Assembly: GCA_026874595.1 (NCBI GenBank) | Contig: CM049320.1 | Location: forward strand, 36,862,214-36,926,213 | Source: Sipunculus nudus | Taxonomy: Eukaryota > Annelida > Sipuncula > Golfingiida > Sipunculidae | DNA length: 64,000 nucleotides | Direction of reading: 5' to 3' | Part shown: positions 14,501 to 40,602 of the stretch, in pieces | How positions within the stretch are numbered: position 1 is the first letter of the stretch | Layout of the letters: each line of letters opens with the position of its first letter | Position numbers and translations under genes: made by a program | Notes under the pieces: generated by a model | Seen by the model: the letters and a program-made list of their open reading frames with translations, nothing else | What the model was told of the DNA's origin: nothing | The model's database searches: none

Positions 14501-14742
14501 CTGTTCTTAATTCAGCGATTTTCTGATGGCGAATTTTGGTATGAAGATACTTATTTTAACAGGAATACAAAATGGCTAATAAACATGCTCTCCTGTAAAC
14601 ATGTAACATGTAAACAATGACGATAACAACATATATACATTTAAACATAAGGTGACATACAAGCATAAGGTGACATATAAGCACGTGATACAATATATTG
14701 TTACGGAACCTAGTATAAACAGATCACGCATGCGTGATGAAC

Positions 14743-15491
14743 TGTAACACTAGGCAGCGTAAAATGTATAGGGGAATGAATAAAGAAGTCAGTGTTTTTT
14801 TTTTTTGTTAACAAATAACCATAATTTATTCTTAAAACAACACTAACATTACAATACACTAAATCAATACAAAAATACAGTAAAAGAGCGGTATAACAAC
14901 AAATCAATACAATGGCACGGAAAATAAACAATGTGCACAGTACCTGGATACCACCATCGTCACAACGATAAGTTCTTTAAATGTATACTCTCGGAGAATG
15001 ACAGTCCAGTGTAAAGCTCTTGTAACAATCCAGAAAGTAAACTGAAGTCCAAATGTACAAAATCCAGGAGAAAGTCTTAGAAAATTTATAATTTCCCGCA
15101 TTCGTCGGATAAGGTCCCAGAAACTGACACACGCTTCAGCGTCCGCTAGAAAATCTTCTCTGCTGCTCTCTCCCGGCTCTAGAACACAACTCCTTCATAT
15201 ACCTTTTCACCTCAAGCCGAGAAGCCTCTTTATCTAGAACATTCGAAGAATAATACATTATACACGGTAAGCATGCGTCACAGGAATCATCTAGAAGAAC
15301 ATCGCTGTGTGTCTCTACACACTGTGTTTTTACACGTGATCCCCGCTAGGCAAGAAAGCCCCTAGCTAGCATGACAACGAGAGTTCAACCAGACCAGTAC
15401 AGATTAAACACAGAATGTAACCAACGGCAAGGCGAGGGTGTCACAACACGAGTTACGCCCGTGTCACACAATAAAAAGAGCACCTGTAACA
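14743..15491 (-). mobile_element. Solo LTR of the Gmr1-type Ty3/gypsy family
   Basis: Read on the minus strand it starts TGTTACAGGTG and ends CCTAGTGTTACA, matching the 5' LTR at 29120-29852 over its length (shared internal CTCGGAGAGTATACAT-like, CTGGATTGTTACAAG-like and poly-T/GTTAACA segments). No internal region flanks it, so it arose by LTR-LTR recombination or is a fragment. No target duplication is evident. Confidence 0.75.
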
Positions 15492-15651: not shown

Positions 15652-16964
15652 TTATAAACGCTTAGTTTGTGTAGTAAACCGTGTTAAGGCTATGCGTTTC
15701 TTATCTCTTATAAAGTCTGATGGGGCATTTCTCCCACGTAATATGAATACTTTTAACTTTTTGTTTTCAGTTTTAGTTGTAGGATCATGTTTGATAAAGA
15801 ATTTTACATCGTATTTTTCTTCGTCAAATGCTGTTTTTATGAACGTGAACATATCGGATCGACATCGGCTGTACCTTAAACATTGTAATAAATAGTGTTC
15901 CGTGCATTCTCCAGCTGATGTACAGTTACAAAATGGACTATCCTTTTCCCGATTTTAATTAAGTACTGATTCAAGGAACAAGCCCCGAATCTTTATCTAA
16001 CAATAATTATCACCTCATTTTCTGAAGGGAAAAGAGAAACATCTGTCTTCGGGTTTCTTTGTTTTGAATAAACGAACTTCAGGGCGCGCTTGAAAGATTC
16101 AAGACAATTAATATTTCTTATTTCAATCGGCGATTCATCCCATTTTTCACATGCATTAGGCAAAAAAGATCTTTTATATTTTTCTTTTCTCACAAGTGGT
16201 ATTTATATATTGTGTTTATTTTGTAGATTATTAGATCTGGAATCTCCGCGTCTCTGGATTTAGTTTCCTCAAATAAATTGGCGATAGGTTATTTACCATT
16301 TTGTAAAATGTGAGAAGTATTTGAAAATCTCTCTGGAAGGAGAGATGAGGCCAATGCAGCTCATTGTACTTTTTTTTGAGCTGGTTGCGATTAAAGCGCT
16401 GGTGCAGATAAGTGCGGCTCTTCTCTGGGTGCTTTCTAATTGATTACTTTGTTTCGCTGTGTAGATGTAAATACTTATGACCCGTATTCTAAAACTGGAA
16501 GAACCATTGAATTGTACAACCGTTCCAGTATTTTCATAGACATCTTGAATTTATAATATTTTAAAATAGCAATTTTTTTGGAAGCTTTAAGACATAAATT
16601 ATTAATTTGTTCGGACCATGACAAGTTTTTAGTCAGTATCACCCCGAGGTGTTTTACGCTGGTAACGTCAGATAGTTTGCCGTCGTCAAAATACAGCGGT
16701 GGATGCGTATTTTACGATCTTTTACTTGAAAAAAACATATAACTTGGGTTGAACTGTAAATGCCATTTATTATCCCTCTGTCTCAAGCGCTGCAAGTCAC
16801 GAACGAGAGACTCCGATGACTGGACTGGATTATCAGTAACAGAATATTCACAGGTGTCATCAGCATAATTAAATATTGTTCTCCAAGTGCAAGTCTATAT
16901 CGTTAACATAAACAAGAAACAATAGTGGTCCCAGTATAGAACCCTGTTGGACACCTGAATATAT
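15652..16964 (-). mobile_element. Jockey/CR1-type LINE, 3' part of reverse transcriptase
   Basis: The minus strand shows GVQQGSILGPLLFLVYVND (RT motif), then NYADDT with the catalytic aspartates, and a thumb region (KHLGVIL, LEYGS). The C-terminal segment follows (PNACEKWDESPIEIRN, ESFKRALKF), then CSLNQYLIK and a CNC...ECTEHYLLQC zinc-like motif near 15900. Several stops and at least two frameshifts make it inactive. The element is cut off abruptly at 16964, exactly where the miniature LTR element begins; everything 5' of the GVQQGS motif is missing. Confidence 0.75.
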
Positions 16965-17013
16965 TGTTACGTAAAAGCGGAACGATCTGTCTCGCTAGTG
17001 CAACATGCTTTTC

Positions 17014-17086
17014 TAGCATAGCGGTTGGTACGCTTGACTTGTGCGCCACCGACATGGGTTCGACTCCAGGATCGGCCCGATATTTT
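17014..17086 (+). promoter_or_regulatory. Pol III unit in the 5' LTR of copy A
   Basis: A box TAGCATAGCGG at 17014-17024 fits TRGYNNARNNG exactly. B box GGTTCGACTCC is at 17057-17067, 43 nt downstream as in a tRNA gene. A TTTT Pol III terminator is at 17083-17086. The A box overlaps the right arm of a hairpin (TCGCTAG with CTAGC) that lies just upstream. Confidence 0.65.
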
Positions 17087-17265
17087 CTCCAGAGCAATTT
17101 GTCTTCGTAACAAAATGGGGGCTCGTCCGGGATGACGGTAAACTTTGTGGCCCTGGGAATAAGCTCACCAAGTGTGACTCCTGGGAAAATTAGTCTTAAG
17201 AGGGTGTGTGTTACGGAGTGACATAAAAGCGGACCGAACTGTCTCGCTAGTGAAGCATGCTTTTC

Positions 17266-17338
17266 TAGCGAAGCGGTTGGTACGCTGGACTTGTGCACTA
17301 CCGACATGGGTTTGAATCCTGGATCGGCCCGATATTTT
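17266..17338 (+). promoter_or_regulatory. Pol III unit in the 3' LTR of copy A
   Basis: A box TAGCGAAGCGG at 17266-17276, B box GGTTTGAATCC at 17309-17319 (one substitution from the GGTTCGA form), TTTT at 17335-17338. The same order and spacing recurs in all six LTRs in the window. Confidence 0.65.
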
Positions 17339-17364
17339 CCCCTGTGCAATTTGTCTTCGTAACA

Positions 17365-17626
17365 ACAGCCTGACATGAGTTTAGGTATACTTTTCCTGTG
17401 CTCAACATGAAATAACTTTTTAATTTCTATTATATTAAATGTGTAATTAATTGTAACAGATATTGTCTTTCAATGTAGTGGATATGAACATACCAGAACT
17501 GGCTTTACATTGTACTGATCGTGGACTTAACGGAAATACATAATGCTGAACATTACTGAAATATACCCATGACTTGATTGAGAAAGCTCAATAATAATGG
17601 ATTTCAATTTCTAAGTTTATTTTTAG

Positions 17627-24202: not shown

Positions 24203-25188
24203 TGTTAATATAGACATAAAAGCGGACCGAACTGTCTCGCAAGTAAAGCATGCTTTTCTAGCGAAGCGGTTGGAACGCCGGACATATGCGCTACCAACGT
24301 GGGTTCGAATCCCGGATCGGCCAAATGTTTTCCTTGAGCAATTTGTCTTCGTAACAAATGAGGGGTTCCAACGTGACGGTAAACGTTGTGGCCCAGGGAA
24401 TAATCTCACCAAGTGTGACTTCTGGAATAATTGGTCTTACTCTGATAGCAGAACGCTCTTAAGCCCCGGTCACAACACACCGTGCATGTTTTTAGTCAGT
24501 ACGTTTTTTGGGGGGAGACGACGGCCACCACGTGTTTCTGAAAACGTGGGAGGGAGTTGCAAGAGTAGGGAGGGAGTGCGTCAACGCACGGTTGGCAAGG
24601 TGTAAGTACGTGGCCCGTGAGCGTTTGCGTGCATCGTACGACGCGCACGTGGTAAGTGAGTTGTACGTGCTTACAACGTGCTTGCAACGTACGATCTCCG
24701 TGCAATTGCCAGGTTGTCGTACGGAGGCAGTACTTACACGTGCTGCTCACGTACGGTGCCCTTAACCACTCGCATGCTGTAAATGCGTGCAAGTGCGATG
24801 AACGTGAGTTTTTTTCGCCCGATGCCGGGGGTGAATCCGTAGCCCGGACGGAGCCTGAACGAAGCGAAAGTTCCTCCTGCACTAAAAGTGCTACGGCGTG
24901 TCTGCGTGCTCCCAAATCCGTACTGAGGCGGTACTCACTACGTGCGGATCCCCAAGTTTTGCCCACGTTTTTGCAAGTAGACATCATGCACTTGCAAATA
25001 CGGCGGGTTGGGACCACGGCTTTATGAGGGGGTATATTACGGGGTGACATAAAAGCGGACCGAACTGTCCTGCTAGTGAAGCTTGCTTTTTTAACGAAGC
25101 GGTTGGAATGCGGACATGTGCGCCACAGACATGGGTTCGAATCCAAGATCGGCCCAATGTTTTCCCTTAAGCATTTTTCTTCGTAACA
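24203..25188 (+). mobile_element. Miniature LTR retroelement, copy B, with nested MITE
   Basis: 5' LTR 24203-24356 and 3' LTR 25035-25188, 154 bp each. Both contain the hairpin, the A box (TAGCGAAGCGG in the 5' LTR, TAACGAAGCGG in the 3' LTR), the B box GGTTCGAATCC and the TTTT terminator. The primer-binding site is decayed (ATGAGGGGTTCC after 24357). The internal sequence matches the other copies up to CGCTCTTAA, is interrupted by a 560-bp insert, and resumes with the purine tract AGGGGGTAT. The element is flanked by ATAT on both sides (24199-24202 and 25189-25192; the fifth base also agrees), a target-site duplication. Confidence 0.8.
24462..25021. mobile_element. 560-bp MITE (PIF/Harbinger-like) inserted in copy B
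   Basis: Imperfect terminal inverted repeats: left AGCCCCGGTCACAACACACC, right (reverse complement) AGCCGTGGTCCCAACCCGCC, 15 of 20 identical. It is flanked by TTA on both sides (24459-24461 and 25022-25024), which fits the 3-bp TWA target of PIF/Harbinger elements. The interior is GC-rich and full of ACGT, GTACGT and CACGTG words, unlike the AT-rich flanks, and encodes no recognisable transposase. Family placement rests only on the target length and is tentative. Confidence 0.6.
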
Positions 25189-29119: not shown

Positions 29120-29852
29120 TGTTACAGGTTCTCTTTTTATTATGTGACACCGGAATAACTCCTGTTGTGGCGCTCGTGTCTGGCCGCGTATTAAATTTTA
29201 TGTTTAATCCGTACTGGTTGAACTCTTGTTGTCATGTAAGCCTTGAGTTTCACGCCTGGTCTTGGGTCACGTGATGACCCTGGTGTGTGGAGATACACAT
29301 GGCTATGCTCTTCTCAAAAATTTCTGAAATGCGTGTTTACTGTGCAACATCTTATAGATTGTTCGAGAAGTGGAAAATTCGCGGCTTGAGGTTTGAAGGT
29401 ATATAAAGGAGCTCTGTTTAGAAAGGGCAGGGGCACAGAGCAGAGAATATTCCAGCGGACGCAGAAGCCTGTGTCAGATTCTAGAACCTGATCCGAATAA
29501 TCCGGCAATTATACATTTTCAAAGACTTTCTCCTGGATTTTATGCATTTGGACTTCAGTTTACTTTCTGGGTTGTTGCAAGAACTTTCCACTAGACTGTC
29601 ATTCTCCGAGAGTTTACATTTAAAGGACTTATCGTTGTGATGGTGTTGTTAACCAGGTACTGTGCACATACATTATTTTCACTGTAATTGTATTGACTTG
29701 TTGCTATACCGCTGCTTTACTGTATAATTGTATTGATTTATTGTATTGCAATGTTAGGGTAGTTTGATGAATATATTATAGTTATTTGTTAACAAAAAAA
29801 AAACACTGTCTTTATTCATTCCCCTAGACATTTCACGCTGCCTAGTGTTACA
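29120..29852 (+). mobile_element. 5' LTR of the Gmr1-type Ty3/gypsy element
   Basis: 733 bp, starting TGTTACAGG and ending AGTGTTACA. A TATATAAAGG promoter box is at about 29400. The first ~270 bp match the truncated 3' LTR at 34723-34992 with about 20 differences plus small indels (roughly 7 percent), so the insertion is old. The solo LTR at 14743-15491 is a second family member. Confidence 0.8.
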
Positions 29853-30019
29853 GAATCTGATTTTTTTTTATCTCCATTACAACATTTGTGTTCATCAGGC
29901 ATACGTGACCATTGTATAGGTAAGAAAGGGAAGAACATGAAAGGTTAAAAAGAAAATGAGTTAAAACGACTAGAGTTAGAAAGTAGAACATAGACTACGT
30001 GCTGCCTCAACTCACAGTT

Positions 30020-30924
30020 TTGATGTTACTAAACATATTAGACTTTTCCCACCTTTTGAAGAAAAAGAGGTTGATAAATATTTCTTACACTTTGAGAAGG
30101 TAGCTGAAAATTTAAAATGGCCCAAGGAAAATTGGACTATGCTGTTACAAAGTGTATTGACTGGCAAGGTCAGAGAAATTCATGCAGAGCTTTCAGTAGA
30201 AGCTGCTGCTGACTATGACCTGGTAAAACGGTTTATCCTAAAAGGCCATGAGCTAGTTCCATAGGCGTACCGCCAGAAATTCAGATACTGGGAAAAGCGT
30301 AAAAAACAGACCTACGTCGAATTTGCTAGGACAAAAGAGCAGATATTTGATCGCTGGTGTAGTTCTCAAAATGTAAAGAAAGATTATGACAATTTGCGCC
30401 AGTTGATTTAGCTTGAAGAATTTAAGCGCTGCATTAACGCAGCTGTTAAAACTTTTCTCAATGAGAAAAGCCCTGAAACACTTGACATTGCTGCGCAATT
30501 AGCTGATGATTATTCATTGACACACAAAATGTCCTTTACTGGCAAATCAAACCAGTCATTCACAAATAAGAATGTAAAACAGTATGGTCAAAAGAAGTTT
30601 ACAGCACAGTCACACAGTACTAGTAGTCCTGATAGTTCAGCAAAGCCCATAGCTACATCTCAGTCCACGTCCACTGTGTCTAAGTCCAACAAAGACCAGT
30701 CATTTTTAAAGAAAATCTGTAATAACTGCAAGAATAAAGGTCATCTAATATCTGACTGCTGGAAACTTGTGAATAAAACAAATAGCAAACCTTCTGGTTT
30801 TGTTTCAAAATCTATGCATAGCATAGCACAAGAGCCAGGCTCTTTTCATGTAAATAAGGGGTACAACTCCTTTATTGACTCTAATAAAGAGTTTGATGCC
30901 ACTGAGGCCCACGTGCCTTCTTAA
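30020..30924 (+). pseudogene. gag: Gag remnant: SCAN-like capsid and zinc knuckle
   Basis: The frame from about 30030 includes RLFPPFEEKEVDKYFLHFEK, then AYRQKFRYWEKRKKQTYVEF and CSSQNVKKDYDNLRQLI, a helical capsid region with the spacing of SCAN domains, which are thought to derive from Gmr1-like capsids. Two in-frame stops occur (near 30262 and 30411). A serine/threonine-rich linker leads to the zinc knuckle ICNNCKNKGHLISDCWKL (CX2CX4HX4C) near 30717-30770. Gag proteins assemble the virus-like particle and bind the element RNA; that is family knowledge. Confidence 0.7.
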
Positions 30925-30944
30925 TCAAAAGAATAATCCGTAGC

Positions 30945-31292
30945 TTGCGATGTAAAACCTCAGTTGATTCCTGCGAGGAATTAAATAAAGCTAGGTCCTT
31001 TCAAGACTCCTGCGAGGAGTATTCTCTAAATGAGGCTAAGTCCTTTTATGACTCTTGCGAGAGTATTTCAAATGAGGCCAGGTCCTCTGATGACACACAA
31101 AAGTTTGTTTCTGCTGAGGAAAATTCCTCTGTTGACTCCCATGAGGAGTTTGATGATAAGAAGGATGCAGATTACTTAGATGACTCTGAAACAGAGTTTA
31201 TGACCGACACTGTCAATGTCAGTTCTTTGTTTGATGAGGATGAGGTAGTAGATTCCTCTCTTGACTCTGAAATGGAGTTATTTGAGCAGTGA
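30945..31292 (+). pseudogene. Acidic repeat segment between gag and protease
   Basis: A 115-codon frame built from repeats of the form (D)SCEE followed by aspartate-rich runs (DSCEELNKARSF, DSCEEYSLNEAKSF, DSCESISNEARSS). Strongly acidic and low in complexity; five or more imperfect repeats of about 15-18 residues. It continues the gag reading frame region and has no enzyme motif. Its role is unknown. Confidence 0.5.
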
Positions 31293-31700
31293 TCAGCAGT
31301 GATGGTTTTGTATCACTTTCGAGTGATTTTACAGATTCTACCCCTCTTAGAATTTTGAGGGACACTGGTTCAGGCCAGACACTAATGTTAGCAAACACTT
31401 TGCCATTTTCTGGTAGGTCCTTTACTGGTGCACATGCATTTGTTAATGGTGTTTTTTTCAGACAGGCACATTTTAGTTCCGCTTCACAGTATCCTTTTGA
31501 AGTCAGATTTGATTTCTGAGAGTATTACTGTGGGCATAAGAACTACTTTACCCTTTAAGGGAATTCAATTGCTACAAGGCAATGATGTTGCAGGTGATAA
31601 AGTACAGCCTGTGCAAATAGTGACAGAAAAGCCATCACTTGATCAGGACACTGATCCGGAAAGTCAGGAAATTCCTGGTTTTATCTTTCATGTGCTGTAA
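31289..31700 (+). pseudogene. Retroviral-type aspartic protease remnant
   Basis: LRILRDTGSGQTLMLANTLPF near 31340-31400 carries the D-T-G active site. A frameshift near 31450-31490 moves the reading frame to the one seen at 31428-31700, which ends in ITVGIRTTLPFKGIQLLQGND, the typical C-terminal sheet region (I-x-x-x-L-L-G-x-D type). In active elements this enzyme cleaves Gag and Pol. Confidence 0.6.
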
Positions 31701-31776
31701 CTAGATCTATGGCCAAGAAAAACACACATGAGGATAATGGTCCAGGTAAGAACACTCTGGGAGTCACTATAGTGAC

Positions 31777-33150
31777 TTGTATAACGACTCGCCCGTACAG
31801 GATACAGCATTCTCAAGGTCAGAACTTATCGCGGAACACCATAAGGACCCTGATATTTCATGTTTGTTTCCCAGGGCCGTTTCTAAAGATGAGCTGTTAC
31901 AGAACCCAGTTTGTTTCTATGTTAAAAATGGAGTGCTCATGCGTAAATGGCGACCACCTGATGTATGCGCTGATGATGAGTGGGCCATCAAATATCAAAT
32001 AGTAATGCCCAAAAGCTTTTGCAGTAAAGTTCTGAGCATGGCACATGAGGCTCCTTTGTCTGGCTATTTAGGTATAAATAAAACGTATCAGAAAGTTAGT
32101 ACACACTTGTATCGGCCTTACCTCAGGAAAGATTTTGTACAATATTGTAAATCATGCCATACATGCCAGATGGTAGGCAAGCCCAATCAGGATCTTCCAA
32201 AGGCCCCACTTAGACTTATTCCTAAGGTACCATTCAGTAGGATTATTGTTGATTGTGTTGGACCACTGCCCAAAACAAAATCTGGACATGAATATTTGTT
32301 GACAATTATGTGCACATCTACCAGGTTCCCTGAGGCAATACCATTGCGCAAAATTAATGCCAAAAGTGTTGTCAAAGCTCTGATCAATTTTTTACAACTT
32401 TCGGATTGCCAATATCCGTCCAGTCTGCCCAAGGGTCTAATTTTATGCCTTGCTTATTCCAACAAGTTATGCTTGAGCTAGGTATAAAACAGTGCAGCTC
32501 TTCGCCATACCATCCTGAAAGTCAGGGCGACCTCGAGCGTTTTCACAAGACATTAAAAAACATGATCAGGACTTATTGCTATGACACACAGAAAAACTGG
32601 AATGAAAGAATCCACCTATTACTATTTGCTGTCAGAGAATCCTTTCAAGAGTCCTTGGGTTTCAGTCCCTTTGAACTAGTTTTTGGACGCTCCGTTCGAG
32701 GTCCATTGAAACTGCTTAAAGAAAAACTCTTGTGTGAAAATCCTGATTCTCTTAGTTTACCGCAGTATGTCTCAGACTTTCGCACTAAACTACACAATGC
32801 TTGTGAGATTGCAAAGTCAAATCTAAAATGTGCACGAAGTAAAATGAAAACAGAGTATGACAAGCACACTGTGAGTAGGACATTTGAGCCTGGTGAAAAG
32901 GTTCTTGCCTTACTTCCCATCCCTGGCAGACCTCTGCAAGCTAGGTATTTTGGTCCTTACATTGTTTACAAGAAAGTCAGTGATTTAAATTACATACTGT
33001 TGACACGAGATAGACGTAAGGAGAAACAACTCTGCCATGTTAACATGTTGAAACCATATCATGATAGAAATAGCACATCATATGTTGTACAAAATGTTAC
33101 TGCTGTTAAGTGTGAAAACACTGACCCTGACCCAGTTAAAATAGATAATG
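31777..33150 (+). pseudogene. Integrase of the Gmr1-type element
   Basis: The zinc-binding HHCC domain is near 32040-32175 (HEAPLSGYLG, YCKSCHTCQMVGKPNQD). The catalytic core starts with IIVDCVGPLPKTKSGHEY (first Asp). After a frame change near 32410-32450 the second catalytic position reads SAQGSNF, with Ala in place of the expected Asp (near 32425). The third position is intact in YHPESQGDLERFHKTLKNM (Glu). A C-terminal YFGPYIVYKKVSDLNYIL segment follows. The frame break and lost aspartate make it inactive. Confidence 0.75.
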
Positions 33151-33269
33151 ATTGTAAGTGTGATGTAGACATTCAGTGTGGTACAGTACCATTAAAAAAC
33201 TCAGACGTGCTTAAAAACCTGGATGGCAAACTGTCACAACAACAACAAGACCTAAAGAACCTGCTGCGG

Positions 33270-34080
33270 AATTATGAACATTTGTTTAGTGACATTACAA
33301 CGCGAACTAACATGTTGTGCCTTGACGTCGATGTTGGTGAGGCAAGCGCAGTCAAGCAACATCCATATAGACTGAATCCAGAAAAGCAAAAGTATCTACA
33401 GGATGAGATTCGATATTTGCTGGACAATGATTTTACTGATCTTAGTTACAGTAGCTGGAGATGACCATGTATTCTTGTGACAAAACCTGATTGAACTTAC
33501 CGTATGTGCACAAATTATCAAAAACTGAACTCTGTCACCAAGACTGACACGTTCCCGATTCGACGATCGATGATTGTATTGATATAGTCGGTAGCTCCAG
33601 ATGTGTCTCCAAGTGTGACTTGCTTAAAGGATTCTGGCAAGTTCCGCTGACACATCGAACGAAAGAAGTGTCCGCATTTGTGACGCCGCAAGGACTGTAC
33701 CAGTATAAAGTTATGCCGTTTGGCATGCAGAACTCGCCAGCAACGTTCCAGCGCCTCATCCATATGGTTGTCAAGGACATTCCGGGCTGCGACGCATATA
33801 TTGATGACCTCATCGTGTACAGCGACACATAGCAGAAACATCTCCAAACTCTTCGCGACCTCTTCGAAAGACTCAGTGAAGCACGTCTGACCGTCAACTA
33901 AGTAAAATCTGAGTTATTTTCATGCACAAGTAACCTTTTTGGTTCATTTTGTAGGGCAGGGTCAGGTAAAACCTGTTGATGCTACGATAAGTGCTGTTTC
34001 TGCATTTCCTAGACCAGAAAACAAAAAGCAAATCATGCGTTTTCTTGGTATGGTTGGATACTACAGGAAATTTTGTCCAA
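33270..34080 (+). pseudogene. Reverse transcriptase of the Gmr1-type element
   Basis: The RT begins with VKQHPYRLNPEKQKYLQDEI before a stop at 33462. After a frame change come LLKGFWQVPLTHRTKEVSAF, FGMQNSPATFQ and the catalytic box YIDDLIVYSDT (near 33798-33830), ending at a stop at 33830. RFLGMVGYYRKFCPNFS follows near 34035-34095. The portion 33540-33900 is about 50 percent GC and CpG-rich, whereas the flanks are about 34 percent GC. Confidence 0.75.
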
Positions 34081-34229
34081 ATTTTTCTGCTGATTCCTTG
34101 AACTAATTTTTAAAGAAAAAACAAATGTTTGTATGGAAAGTTCAGATTGAAAATGCATTTCAGAATTTGAAAGCAATTCTGCAAAGTTCACCAGTTTTAG
34201 AAGCTCCATACTTTTTTATACCTTTTAAG

Positions 34230-34596
34230 TAAGCTGTAGATGCTAGTGATGCTGCTGCAGGTGCTGTGTTGTTACAAGAAGGCAATGATGACATGGATCA
34301 TCCAATTTGTTATTTCTCAAGAAAGTTTAATGCAAACCAGAAAAACTACTCCACTATTGAAAAAGAATGTTTGGCTTCGATTTTGGCGTTGCAACATTTT
34401 GAAGTTTATGTTACTTCACCAGTCAGGCCTTTCATTGTCTTGTGATCACAATCCCCTCACGTTCATGGACAAGTTGAAGTGTAAAAATGAGAGATTGTTG
34501 AGATGGAATTTGTTCTTACAAGATTACAATCTTGTTATCATACTCATTAAAGGGAAAGACAATGTACTTGCTGATTGCTTATCTAGATGTTTATGA
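34230..34596 (+). pseudogene. RNase H of the Gmr1-type element
   Basis: AVDASDAAAGAVLLQEGNDD (first catalytic Asp), then FSRKFNANQKNYSTIEKECLA with the conserved Glu, then SLSCDHNPLTFMDKL and a C-terminal KGKDNVLADCLSR, the D-x-L-S-R ending typical of Ty3/gypsy RNase H. Two frames are needed (one change near 34330). This is the most 3' enzymatic domain, just before the LTR. Confidence 0.75.
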
Positions 34597-34722
34597 AATG
34601 TTGTAAACAGAATGTTTTTGTGATGTTGTAGATAAGATGATTTTTAAGATGTTGCAAGGATTTTTGATTGTGATCGCAAAAAGAAAGTTTTCCATGAAAA
34701 CTTTCTTTTTTCTTACAGGGAG

Positions 34723-34992
34723 TGTTACAAGTGCTGTTTTTATTATGTGACACGGGAGTAACTCCTGTTGTGGCGCTCGTGTCTGGCCGCGTATTACATT
34801 TTATTTAATCCGTACTGGTTGAACTCTCGTTGTCATGTAAGCCTTGGGTTTTCACGCCTGGTCATGGGTCACGTGATGACCCTGGTGTGTGGAGATACAC
34901 ATTGCTATGTTCTTCTCGATAATTCCTGAAATGCGTGTTTACTGTGCAAGATCTTGTAGACTGTTCGAGAAATGGAAAATTCGCGGCTTAAG
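34723..34992 (+). mobile_element. Truncated 3' LTR of the Gmr1-type element
   Basis: Matches the first ~270 bp of the LTR at 29120 and stops after GAAAATTCGCGGCTTAAG; the promoter and R/U5 part are missing. A purine-containing ACAGGGAG precedes it. The truncation point is followed within about 300 bp by Helentron sequence. Confidence 0.75.
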
Positions 34993-38580: not shown

Positions 38581-38996
38581 TGTTAAGACAAATTGATCAG
38601 GGGAAAATACTAGGCCGATCCGGGATTCGAACCCTTAACGGTGGCGCACAAGTCTGGCGTACCAACCACTTTGCTAGCAAAGCAAGCTTCACTATAAAGA
38701 CAGTTCGGTCCGCTTTTATGTCACCCTGTAACACACCCCCTTTTAAGAGCGTTATGCTATCAGAACAAGACTAATTATCCCAGGAGTCACACTTATTCCC
38801 TGGGCCACAAAGTTTTACCGTCACGTCGGACGAGCCCCCTTTTTGTTCGAAGACAAATTGATCAAGGGAAAATAATGGGCCGATCCGGGATTCGAACCGA
38901 TAACGGTTGCCACAAGTCCGGCTACCAACCGCTTAGCTAGCAAAGCAAGCTTCACTAGCGAGACAGTTCGGTCCGCTTTAATGTCACCCCGTAACA
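38581..38996 (-). mobile_element. Complete miniature LTR retroelement, copy C
   Basis: In element orientation (minus strand): 5' LTR 38996-38844 (153 bp), internal 38843-38734 (110 bp), 3' LTR 38733-38581 (153 bp). The primer-binding site region reads AGGGGGCTCGTCCGACGT, still close to the tRNA-Pro site. A purine tract AAAAGGGGGTG precedes the 3' LTR. Both LTRs have exact A boxes (TAGCTAAGCGG and TAGCAAAGTGG), a GGTTCGAATCC B box and TTTT. ACTGT flanks the element on both sides (38577-38581 and 38997-39001, one T shared with the terminus), a target-site duplication. No protein is encoded. Confidence 0.85.
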
Positions 38997-39842: not shown

Positions 39843-40426
39843 AATACAAATTTGTGTGTTTCTCTCCTATTGTTTCGGCTTGAGGGTATTTGTCTTCATA
39901 ACATATATACACTTCTTTTTGGGCTGGGGATTCACAAAGGTTGTGTTCCTCAGCCATGCAGTTATTGTGAATCAACAAGTTACTAGGTGTTATACAATAA
40001 ACCAGGGCTTGTATAATTTATTTAAATCAAATAATTTAAATCACTGTAAAAAAGGTACTACAGTTGTCCAAACTGAAACAGATTTTTTAAAGCTAATATG
40101 CCAGTTATCTTTTAAGACTATACTATGCAATACAGAACGTAAACAAAAATCACCAACTACAACTTTGTACAAGATCCTTTGTGATAAAATGTCAAAATAA
40201 TCTGATATTATTGGCTAGAGCTACGCCCTGTATGAGCTACGCTCTGTATTTACACTGACCATGATACATATTCCTTTATGGCCAGTTTTCTACATTACCA
40301 GACAGGTTATTTATCATACAAATGTACCAGGGACCCATGGGTCTTGTTGCTCAGCTAGATTTTAAAAATTTTAGTAAATGCAACGAGTTTTATTTTACAA
40401 TTTTCAAATGAGTATCAATCAAATTT
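39843..40426. other. No feature recognised
   Basis: AT-rich; a 114-codon frame (39856-40200) has no domain signature. Confidence 0.45.
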
Positions 40427-40602
40427 GATAAGCGAGTTAAAACTTAAATCCTCTTATAGTTTGTCAAATATAACTGATTAATTGAGTGTCCCACTCCAGT
40501 GTTATTCATATCATGATAAGCGAGTTAAAACTTAAATCCTCTTATAGTTTGTCAAATATAACTGATTAATTGAGTGTCCCACTCCAGTTATATTCATATC
40601 TA
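40427..40602. repeat. Near-perfect 88-bp tandem duplication
   Basis: Two copies start at 40427 and 40515 with GATAAGCGAGTTAAAACTTA and run through GAGTGTCCCACTCCAG to TATTCATATC. Only a few differences lie near the junction, so the duplication is recent. Confidence 0.9.

Follow-up and report, generated by a model that had tools for sequence, protein, structure and literature searches.

TRIMs with tRNA-like sequences in their LTRs have been described under the name Helenus from bivalves and other animals, tRNA-Pro being among their primers (Kojima, 2024; PMC10886601). What moves TRIMs of the Pol III type is an open question: the partners of the plant element Cassandra are called unknown in the available account (PMC7215508), and for animal Helenus the corresponding text links the elements to Gypsy by PBS likeness only (PMC10886601). 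Genome copies that join a TRIM, its tRNA-Pro primer and one Gypsy family would name both a helper and a primer that can be tested. Here we describe such copies, starting from an element in a 64,000-nucleotide stretch of the Sipunculus nudus genome (hereafter the window; assembly GCA_026874595.1, contig CM049320.1, positions 36,862,214 to 36,926,213, forward strand). The preliminary description of this DNA knew of no animal LTR element built on a tRNA-like Pol III unit, a statement that the published Helenus families overturn. By its features the window element is a Helenus-type TRIM, likened to the named families by description, and it is in itself an ordinary member of a described group.

Results

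A miniature element with tRNA-like boxes in both LTRs

The element, TRIM copy 1, is 400 bp in total, with two short LTRs, under 1 kb and without coding capacity. Its parts, in window coordinates, are as follows.

16965–17112 (+): 5′ LTR, 148 bp
17014–17024 (+): A box TAGCATAGCGG of the 5′ LTR
17057–17067 (+): B box GGTTCGACTCC of the 5′ LTR
17083–17086 (+): TTTT, possible Pol III terminator, of the 5′ LTR
17113–17208 (+): internal region, 96 bp, non-coding
17116–17133 (+): PBS, 18 nt, complement of the tRNA-Pro 3′ end with CCA
17198–17204 (+): purine run AAGAGGG, PPT-like by inspection
17209–17364 (+): 3′ LTR, 156 bp
17266–17276 (+): A box TAGCGAAGCGG of the 3′ LTR
17309–17319 (+): B box GGTTTGAATCC of the 3′ LTR, one mismatch
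17335–17338 (+): TTTT of the 3′ LTR

This layout agrees with the preliminary description, which had proposed paired LTRs around a non-coding interval, a tRNA-Pro PBS, a purine tract ahead of the second LTR and, in each LTR, A and B boxes separated by 43 nt and followed by TTTT; the second B box has one mismatch. The two LTRs share 88.5% identity across 148 aligned nt, and the starts of the A and B boxes are 43 nt apart in both. The PBS (TGGGGGCTCGTCCGGGAT) begins 3 nt past the end of the 5′ LTR and pairs without mismatch with the 18 terminal nt of tRNA-Pro bearing its CCA tail. Genes for this tRNA are present in the same genome, and in the two that were read (TGG and AGG) the 3′ end is complementary to the body of the PBS. 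The purine run ends four nt upstream of the 3′ LTR. About 8 nt that follow TGTTAC in most copies are missing from the 5′ LTR, and the flanks (ATAT vs ACAG) form no target duplication.

A family of paired-LTR insertions

The window holds two further copies.

24203–25188 (+): TRIM copy 2, 5′ LTR 24203–24356, 3′ LTR 25035–25188, target duplication ATAT on both sides
38581–38996 (−): TRIM copy 3, 5′ LTR 38996–38844, degraded PBS, 3′ LTR 38733–38581, target duplication CAGT

The internal region of copy 2 is interrupted by an insertion of ~570 bp (24464–25034), whose ends resemble imperfect inverted repeats and are MITE-like. Elsewhere in the window, an 87–88 bp unit is duplicated in tandem with 98% identity (40426–40600).

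We searched the assembly from which the window is taken (1.43 Gb in 153 contigs) with the whole element, which gave 3201 first-look candidates, 40 of them scored, and with the internal region extended by 7 and 14 nt into the LTR edges, which gave 1423 candidates, again with 40 scored. The latter search yielded 30 loci, including the window copy itself and two near-copies of each other. Matches to the LTR model flank both sides at nearly constant spacing in 29 of them, so that the prospect raised in the preliminary description, that most copies might lack paired LTRs, is not borne out; in the remaining locus, L038, a Gypsy LTR takes the place of a TRIM LTR. A 26-mer spanning U5 and PBS has 419 exact matches in the genome and its reversed control 0. 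Both ends could be read for 42 insertions among 56 LTR clusters, and perfect 4-bp target duplications flank 24 of them, as against a mean of 2.6 and a maximum of 10 in 20,000 permutations of the pairs. Arrays of at least three LTRs account for 9 of 28 clusters in the whole-element set and 5 of 28 loci in the internal-region set; they reach 3–5 units, and six have perfect outer target duplications. The internal region measures ~122 bp in most copies, compared with 96 bp in copy 1. Paired LTRs across copies, the tRNA-Pro PBS and the 4-bp duplications uphold the earlier reading of a non-autonomous miniature LTR element.

For comparisons among LTRs, 128 were aligned and nine poor matches removed, leaving 119; L053, a near-copy of L052, was also removed. 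Two LTR subfamilies are present. Agreement at diagnostic sites within LTR pairs (0.73 and 0.69 vs 0.59 and 0.54 when permuted) had raised the suspicion that pairs are mixed between subfamilies, which linked sites rule against: the same subfamily occupies both ends in 32 of 33 typable two-LTR elements (36 elements, three untyped). Across the 36 elements, differences between the two LTRs cluster at alignment columns 110, 120–124 and 136–138, with rates of 0.28–0.44 against a mean of 0.13, and target duplications are perfect in some of the elements concerned (L036, L037, L015). The LTRs made by canonical reverse transcription are identical, and frequent U5 differences within one element are contrary to this prediction. 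Gene conversion or hypermutable sites are possible sources.

In the same assembly, nine contigs (C60, C61, C62, C66, C72, C74, C75, C89 and C123) carry bacterial cytochrome oxidase genes and are symbiont or contaminant DNA; a cytochrome oxidase from one of them was searched and shares 60% identity with a Spirochaetota protein, its best matches (unnamed) reaching 67%. A COX1 search brought up no animal mitochondrial gene.

The tRNA-like part of the LTR

An A box followed 25–60 nt on by an exact B box and by TTTT is found in 47 of 119 LTR copies, and in 71 when one B-box mismatch is allowed; neither set occurs in any of 5950 dinucleotide shuffles. The Rfam tRNA model gave no match at E ≤ 1 in 16900–17420, RF00005 gave none at E ≤ 1 in any of the 20 loci, out of 60, that were searched, and ARAGORN called no tRNA in the window. 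The tRNA-like part of the 3′ LTR of copy 1 folds into no cloverleaf and no better than shuffles (z +1.05). A functional tRNA gene inside the LTR was rejected on these results. The Rfam search likewise returned no 5S rRNA match at E ≤ 1. When aligned with host tRNA-Pro, the T-arm and acceptor end score 29, compared with a maximum of 26 in 1000 shuffles, in a comparison that took in only three tRNAs.

Differences between the LTRs of one element amount to 0.113 in the A and B boxes and 0.133 elsewhere, with no significant difference, and a small test for conservation of the whole boxes before insertion gave p = 0.22. At 17 box positions constrained by the consensus, between- minus within-element difference is −0.002, compared with 0.032 elsewhere (p = 0.007), in a test that was small, post hoc and run after the whole-box test had failed. 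A recurrent B-box variant sits at the free position of that box (LTR alignment column 106). Neutral decay of the boxes, which the preliminary description had listed as evidence against its reading, is what we see after insertion; before insertion, the constrained positions show no excess variation, and the whole-box test is not significant. The boxes would most likely act as a promoter for Pol III, whose transcription of the LTRs is plausible.

Elsewhere in the window, 1898–1963 (−) matches the Rfam tRNA model with 37.4 bits, over the gathering score, and is absent from the ARAGORN output; a second tRNA-like head lies near 1690 (−), ~290 bp away. Both are probably tRNA-type SINEs.

A candidate helper Gypsy family

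The preliminary description had suggested a search for an autonomous element sharing the PBS and LTR ends of the TRIM, and a candidate was found. Two loci (L062, L070) share the PBS, have a different LTR and brought to light a Gypsy family whose LTR is ~810 bp long (TGTTACAGG...CCGTAACA) and whose tRNA-Pro PBS follows TAAAAT. This PBS is present in L062, L070, L078, L090 and L092. The family is represented in the window by a solo LTR and a decayed copy.

14699–15491 (−): solo LTR of the candidate helper Gypsy (TGTTACAGG...CCGTAACA), target duplication ATAT
29120–29908 (+): 5′ LTR of the decayed copy; similarity ends before the LTR end, no PBS left
31777–34593 (+): decayed pol of this copy, with Integrase_H2C2, Integrase_p58_C, then RT_RNaseH
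34723–34989 (+): truncated 3′ LTR of this copy, covering positions 1–274 of the family LTR

In the decayed copy (29120–34989), the three named domains all exceed their Pfam cut-offs, zinc knuckles ahead of the integrase domains score below theirs, and the RT domain has no Pfam match. Having lost its LTR end and PBS, this copy was rejected as an intact helper. In the window, the Gypsy LTR is flanked by a 4-bp duplication and shares its TGTTAC...GTAACA ends with the TRIM. An order with integrase before RNase H is called Gmr1-like in the part of the literature available to us (PMC3587641), and the helper resembles Gmr1-like Gypsy elements in that its integrase domains lie upstream of RNase H, a likeness of domain order only.

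Probable copies of the tRNA-Pro primer

Three loci preserve what appears to be copied primer next to an LTR. In L074, a TRIM LTR and PBS continue into antisense tRNA-Pro, 38 nt in all and exact; L087 has a Gypsy LTR with 39 nt of exact antisense tRNA-Pro; and L083 has a TRIM LTR with antisense tRNA-Pro extending through the anticodon loop (61 of 66 aligned columns identical), which passes into Gypsy U5 at a CTAGAC common to both. The TGG at the start of the tRNA stretch derives from CCA, which is absent from the tRNA-Pro gene. Because CCA is not gene-encoded, the molecule that was copied must have been a mature tRNA. The stops in L074 and L087 are near tRNA position 37–39 in our own numbering. 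With tRNA-Lys3, plus-strand strong-stop DNA normally ends before m1A58, with minor products at 55, 54 and 37, according to the available part of a review (PMC13191261). Self-priming by the tRNA-like RNA of the LTR in place of tRNA-Pro was considered and rejected, since the 3′ part past ATCCCGGA mismatches the PBS and the fossils carry tRNA-Pro. In the open-licence PMC literature, as far as its texts could be consulted, we found no report of an LTR–PBS with copied antisense CCA-tailed tRNA-Pro (38 to ~60 nt).

A genome search for the last 22 nt of tRNA-Pro at its 3′ end gave 23 occurrences: six at TRIM or Gypsy junction loci, 16 on contig C14 and one on C5. The sixteen exact ends on C14 (19.08–19.32 Mb), many of them ~3.65 kb apart, form a tandem tRNA-Pro gene cluster. 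On C5, three tRNA-Pro PBS sites are spaced ~5.9 kb apart (7138936, 7144853, 7150771), which may mark tandem copies of an autonomous LTR element.

Chimeras and fold-back insertions

In three of the 30 internal-region loci (L038, L043, L047), a Gypsy LTR end adjoins the TRIM internal region; L038 has no matching target duplication. L026 contains a hybrid TRIM/Gypsy LTR, and L011 runs from a TRIM T-arm into antisense PBS and Gypsy U5 and on into the Gypsy leader. Chimeras of TRIM and Gypsy joined at the PBS point to the helper family that is also present in the window.

The end of the PBS, TCCGGGAT, is complementary to ATCCCGGA in the T-arm of the LTR. Exact LTR–PBS complements of at least 7 nt are found in 51 of 119 LTRs and in 173 of 2380 shuffles. 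Among the first 12 loci in which the PBS is not followed by G, three are T-arm fold-backs, two of them near-identical neighbours. The junction pattern TGGGGGCTCGTCCGGGATTYGAA has 25 exact genome matches (reversed control, 0), and all 25 loci were read; as the search itself selects T-arm junctions, the counts that follow are not shares of all rearrangements. TRIM and Gypsy are joined in five of the 25 (L073, L078, L083, L090, L092), with the order Gypsy LTR–PBS–antisense TRIM LTR in L078, L090 and L092. Seven are fold-backs in which a TRIM LTR (+) and PBS are followed by an antisense TRIM LTR that begins at the T-arm and stops exactly at the U3 end (L066, L067, L075, L076, L077, L081, L084). 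Twelve are compound or truncated (L069, L073, L079, L080, L082, L085, L086, L088, L089, L091, L097, L098), and the remaining loci are the primer fossils L074, L083 and L087.

Among the fold-backs, L066 and L067 are near-identical neighbours, L076 lies after another unit, L081 has an extra piece of U5 and L077 an internal deletion. Perfect target duplications flank L066/L067 (TGGC), L075 (CCTT), L077 (AGGA) and L081 (ATAT), and L084 matches at three of four positions. In six loci, the arms of one fold-back are 0.933 alike, compared with 0.900 between loci; the arms of L081, at 0.885, fall below that between-locus mean. At L063/L064 (1402–1582) we also noted a 60-bp tandem repeat of the U5 end and PBS, with the PBS end joined to the LTR sequence that follows the T-arm. 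Neither PBS-joined TRIM–Gypsy chimeras nor PBS/T-arm fold-backs were found reported in the open-licence PMC texts, as far as these were available.

Discussion

We consider it very probable that the window element is a Helenus-type TRIM with a tRNA-like promoter remnant in its LTRs that has been copied in trans by a Gypsy family with an integrase-before-RNase-H (Gmr1-like) pol. Chimeras with the Gypsy LTR or leader suggest, as far as genome sequence can, that this family mobilised the TRIM.

How might such copies form? TRIM RNA, made by Pol II, Pol III or both, would be packaged together with Gypsy RNA, and the minus strand would be primed by tRNA-Pro. Plus-strand strong-stop DNA would then copy U3-R-U5 and 18 nt of the primer, usually halting at m1A58 and occasionally reading further into the tRNA. 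Its 3′ end (TCCGGGAT, or longer after read-through) could anneal to the T-arm sequence ATCCCGGA in the tRNA-like part of the same LTR, giving a fold-back, or in trans to the T-arm of a TRIM LTR, and would be elongated as far as the U3 end of that strand. The products would be inserted by Gypsy integrase with 4-bp duplications. A more speculative idea, which we think has a small chance of being right, is that the tRNA-like part is more than a promoter: its T-arm mimics the primer tRNA-Pro and can anneal to the PBS-derived end of nascent cDNA, whether the TRIM's own or that of Gypsy, feeding TRIM strands into Gypsy replication by strand transfer. If so, fold-back and Gypsy–TRIM insertions would be by-products of Pol III-type TRIMs parasitising their helper, and such LTRs would have a reason to retain tRNA-like sequence.

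Other readings of the family were weighed. A and B boxes with TTTT resemble the head of a SINE, and arrays of 3–5 units occur, as might be expected of plain tRNA-derived SINEs lying in tandem by chance. tRNA SINEs have neither LTRs nor PBS, and their target duplications are made by LINEs and vary in length. We give this reading almost no credence: the LTRs lie on both sides of the internal region at nearly constant spacing in 29 of 30 loci, the PBS is an exact match to tRNA-Pro, and the copies read showed neither poly-A nor variable target duplications; paired LTRs within 4-bp duplications refute it. It is a stronger possibility, if still somewhat unlikely, that the boxes are relics in an element now transcribed by Pol II only, with no promoter role left to the tRNA-like part. 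The missing Rfam match and cloverleaf would fit, as would the weak conservation of the whole boxes (p = 0.22) and the 48 of 119 LTRs in which the set is incomplete even if one mismatch in the B box is tolerated. Against it stand the constrained positions, which carry no pre-insertion variation in the small, post hoc test (−0.002 vs 0.032, p = 0.007), and the recurrent B-box variant, which falls at a free position.

The relationship to Gypsy can be questioned in two ways. TGTTAC/GTAACA LTR ends, a tRNA-Pro PBS and 4-bp duplications are common to both families, and the TRIM could be a deletion derivative of the Gypsy element itself (LARD/TRIM), its LTR having no separate origin. However, beyond the chimeras neither the 810-bp Gypsy LTR nor the Gypsy leader has a BLAST match (E ≤ 1e-4) to TRIM LTRs or to the TRIM internal region, respectively, which makes this extremely unlikely. 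Chimeras and fold-backs could also have arisen by recombination or inversion after insertion and would then be uninformative on the helper. Both families are common and often neighbours, and the arrays show frequent rearrangement. Yet the junctions fall at the PBS and the T-arm (the latter selected by the pattern search), some carry the sequence of mature tRNA-Pro in antisense, for which genomic recombination offers no source, and simple fold-backs stop precisely at the U3 terminus and are bounded by perfect 4-bp duplications. We therefore regard recombination after insertion as very unlikely, and return to copying in trans by Gypsy as the preferred explanation.

Several known systems resemble the window family in part; the published accounts are compared here as far as they were available. 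Cassandra, a plant TRIM of the 5S type (PMC7215508), is likewise non-coding and found in tandem arrays, and its short LTRs also carry a promoter and a terminator for Pol III. Its promoter is that of 5S rRNA, made up of an A box, IE and a C box, whereas the window family has tRNA-type boxes, and its autonomous partner is called unknown, whereas here a candidate partner is seen. The biv-TRIM of bivalves (PMC6934838) is likewise a TRIM with arrays and solo LTRs. By description it differs, with repeats of 202–218 bp, 77–80 bp of internal sequence, a PPT of GGGGAGA, no clear PBS and no partner found; the window family has LTRs of 148–156 bp, an internal region of 96 bp (~122 bp in most copies) and an exact tRNA-Pro PBS. 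In Triticeae, abnormal template switching has given compound LTR insertions with target duplications (PMC1950507). Those are two cases, each of two fused elements, whereas the insertions described here have PBS/T-arm junctions and copied primer tRNA.

Helenus (PMC10886601) is closest. Both are TRIMs of less than 1 kb with tRNA-like A and B boxes in both LTRs, a PBS and a PPT; tRNA-Pro is used in some bivalve families, duplications are of 4 bp in animals, Gypsy is the supposed helper, tandem arrays occur and the LTRs are unlike those of the helper. In the available text of that account, no complementarity to the PBS was found for the tRNA-like part, whereas the window family has 7–8 nt of it and fold-backs that use it. 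What looks new is the presence of genomic fossils of a TRIM copied with its tRNA-Pro primer and a Gypsy element, which display, in animal genomes, intermediates of reverse transcription (primer read-through, T-arm fold-back) that are otherwise seen in test tubes. In the Helenus account, as available, the animal Gypsy helper is inferred from PBS likeness only; in the window family, the copied primer and direct chimeras add to that likeness.
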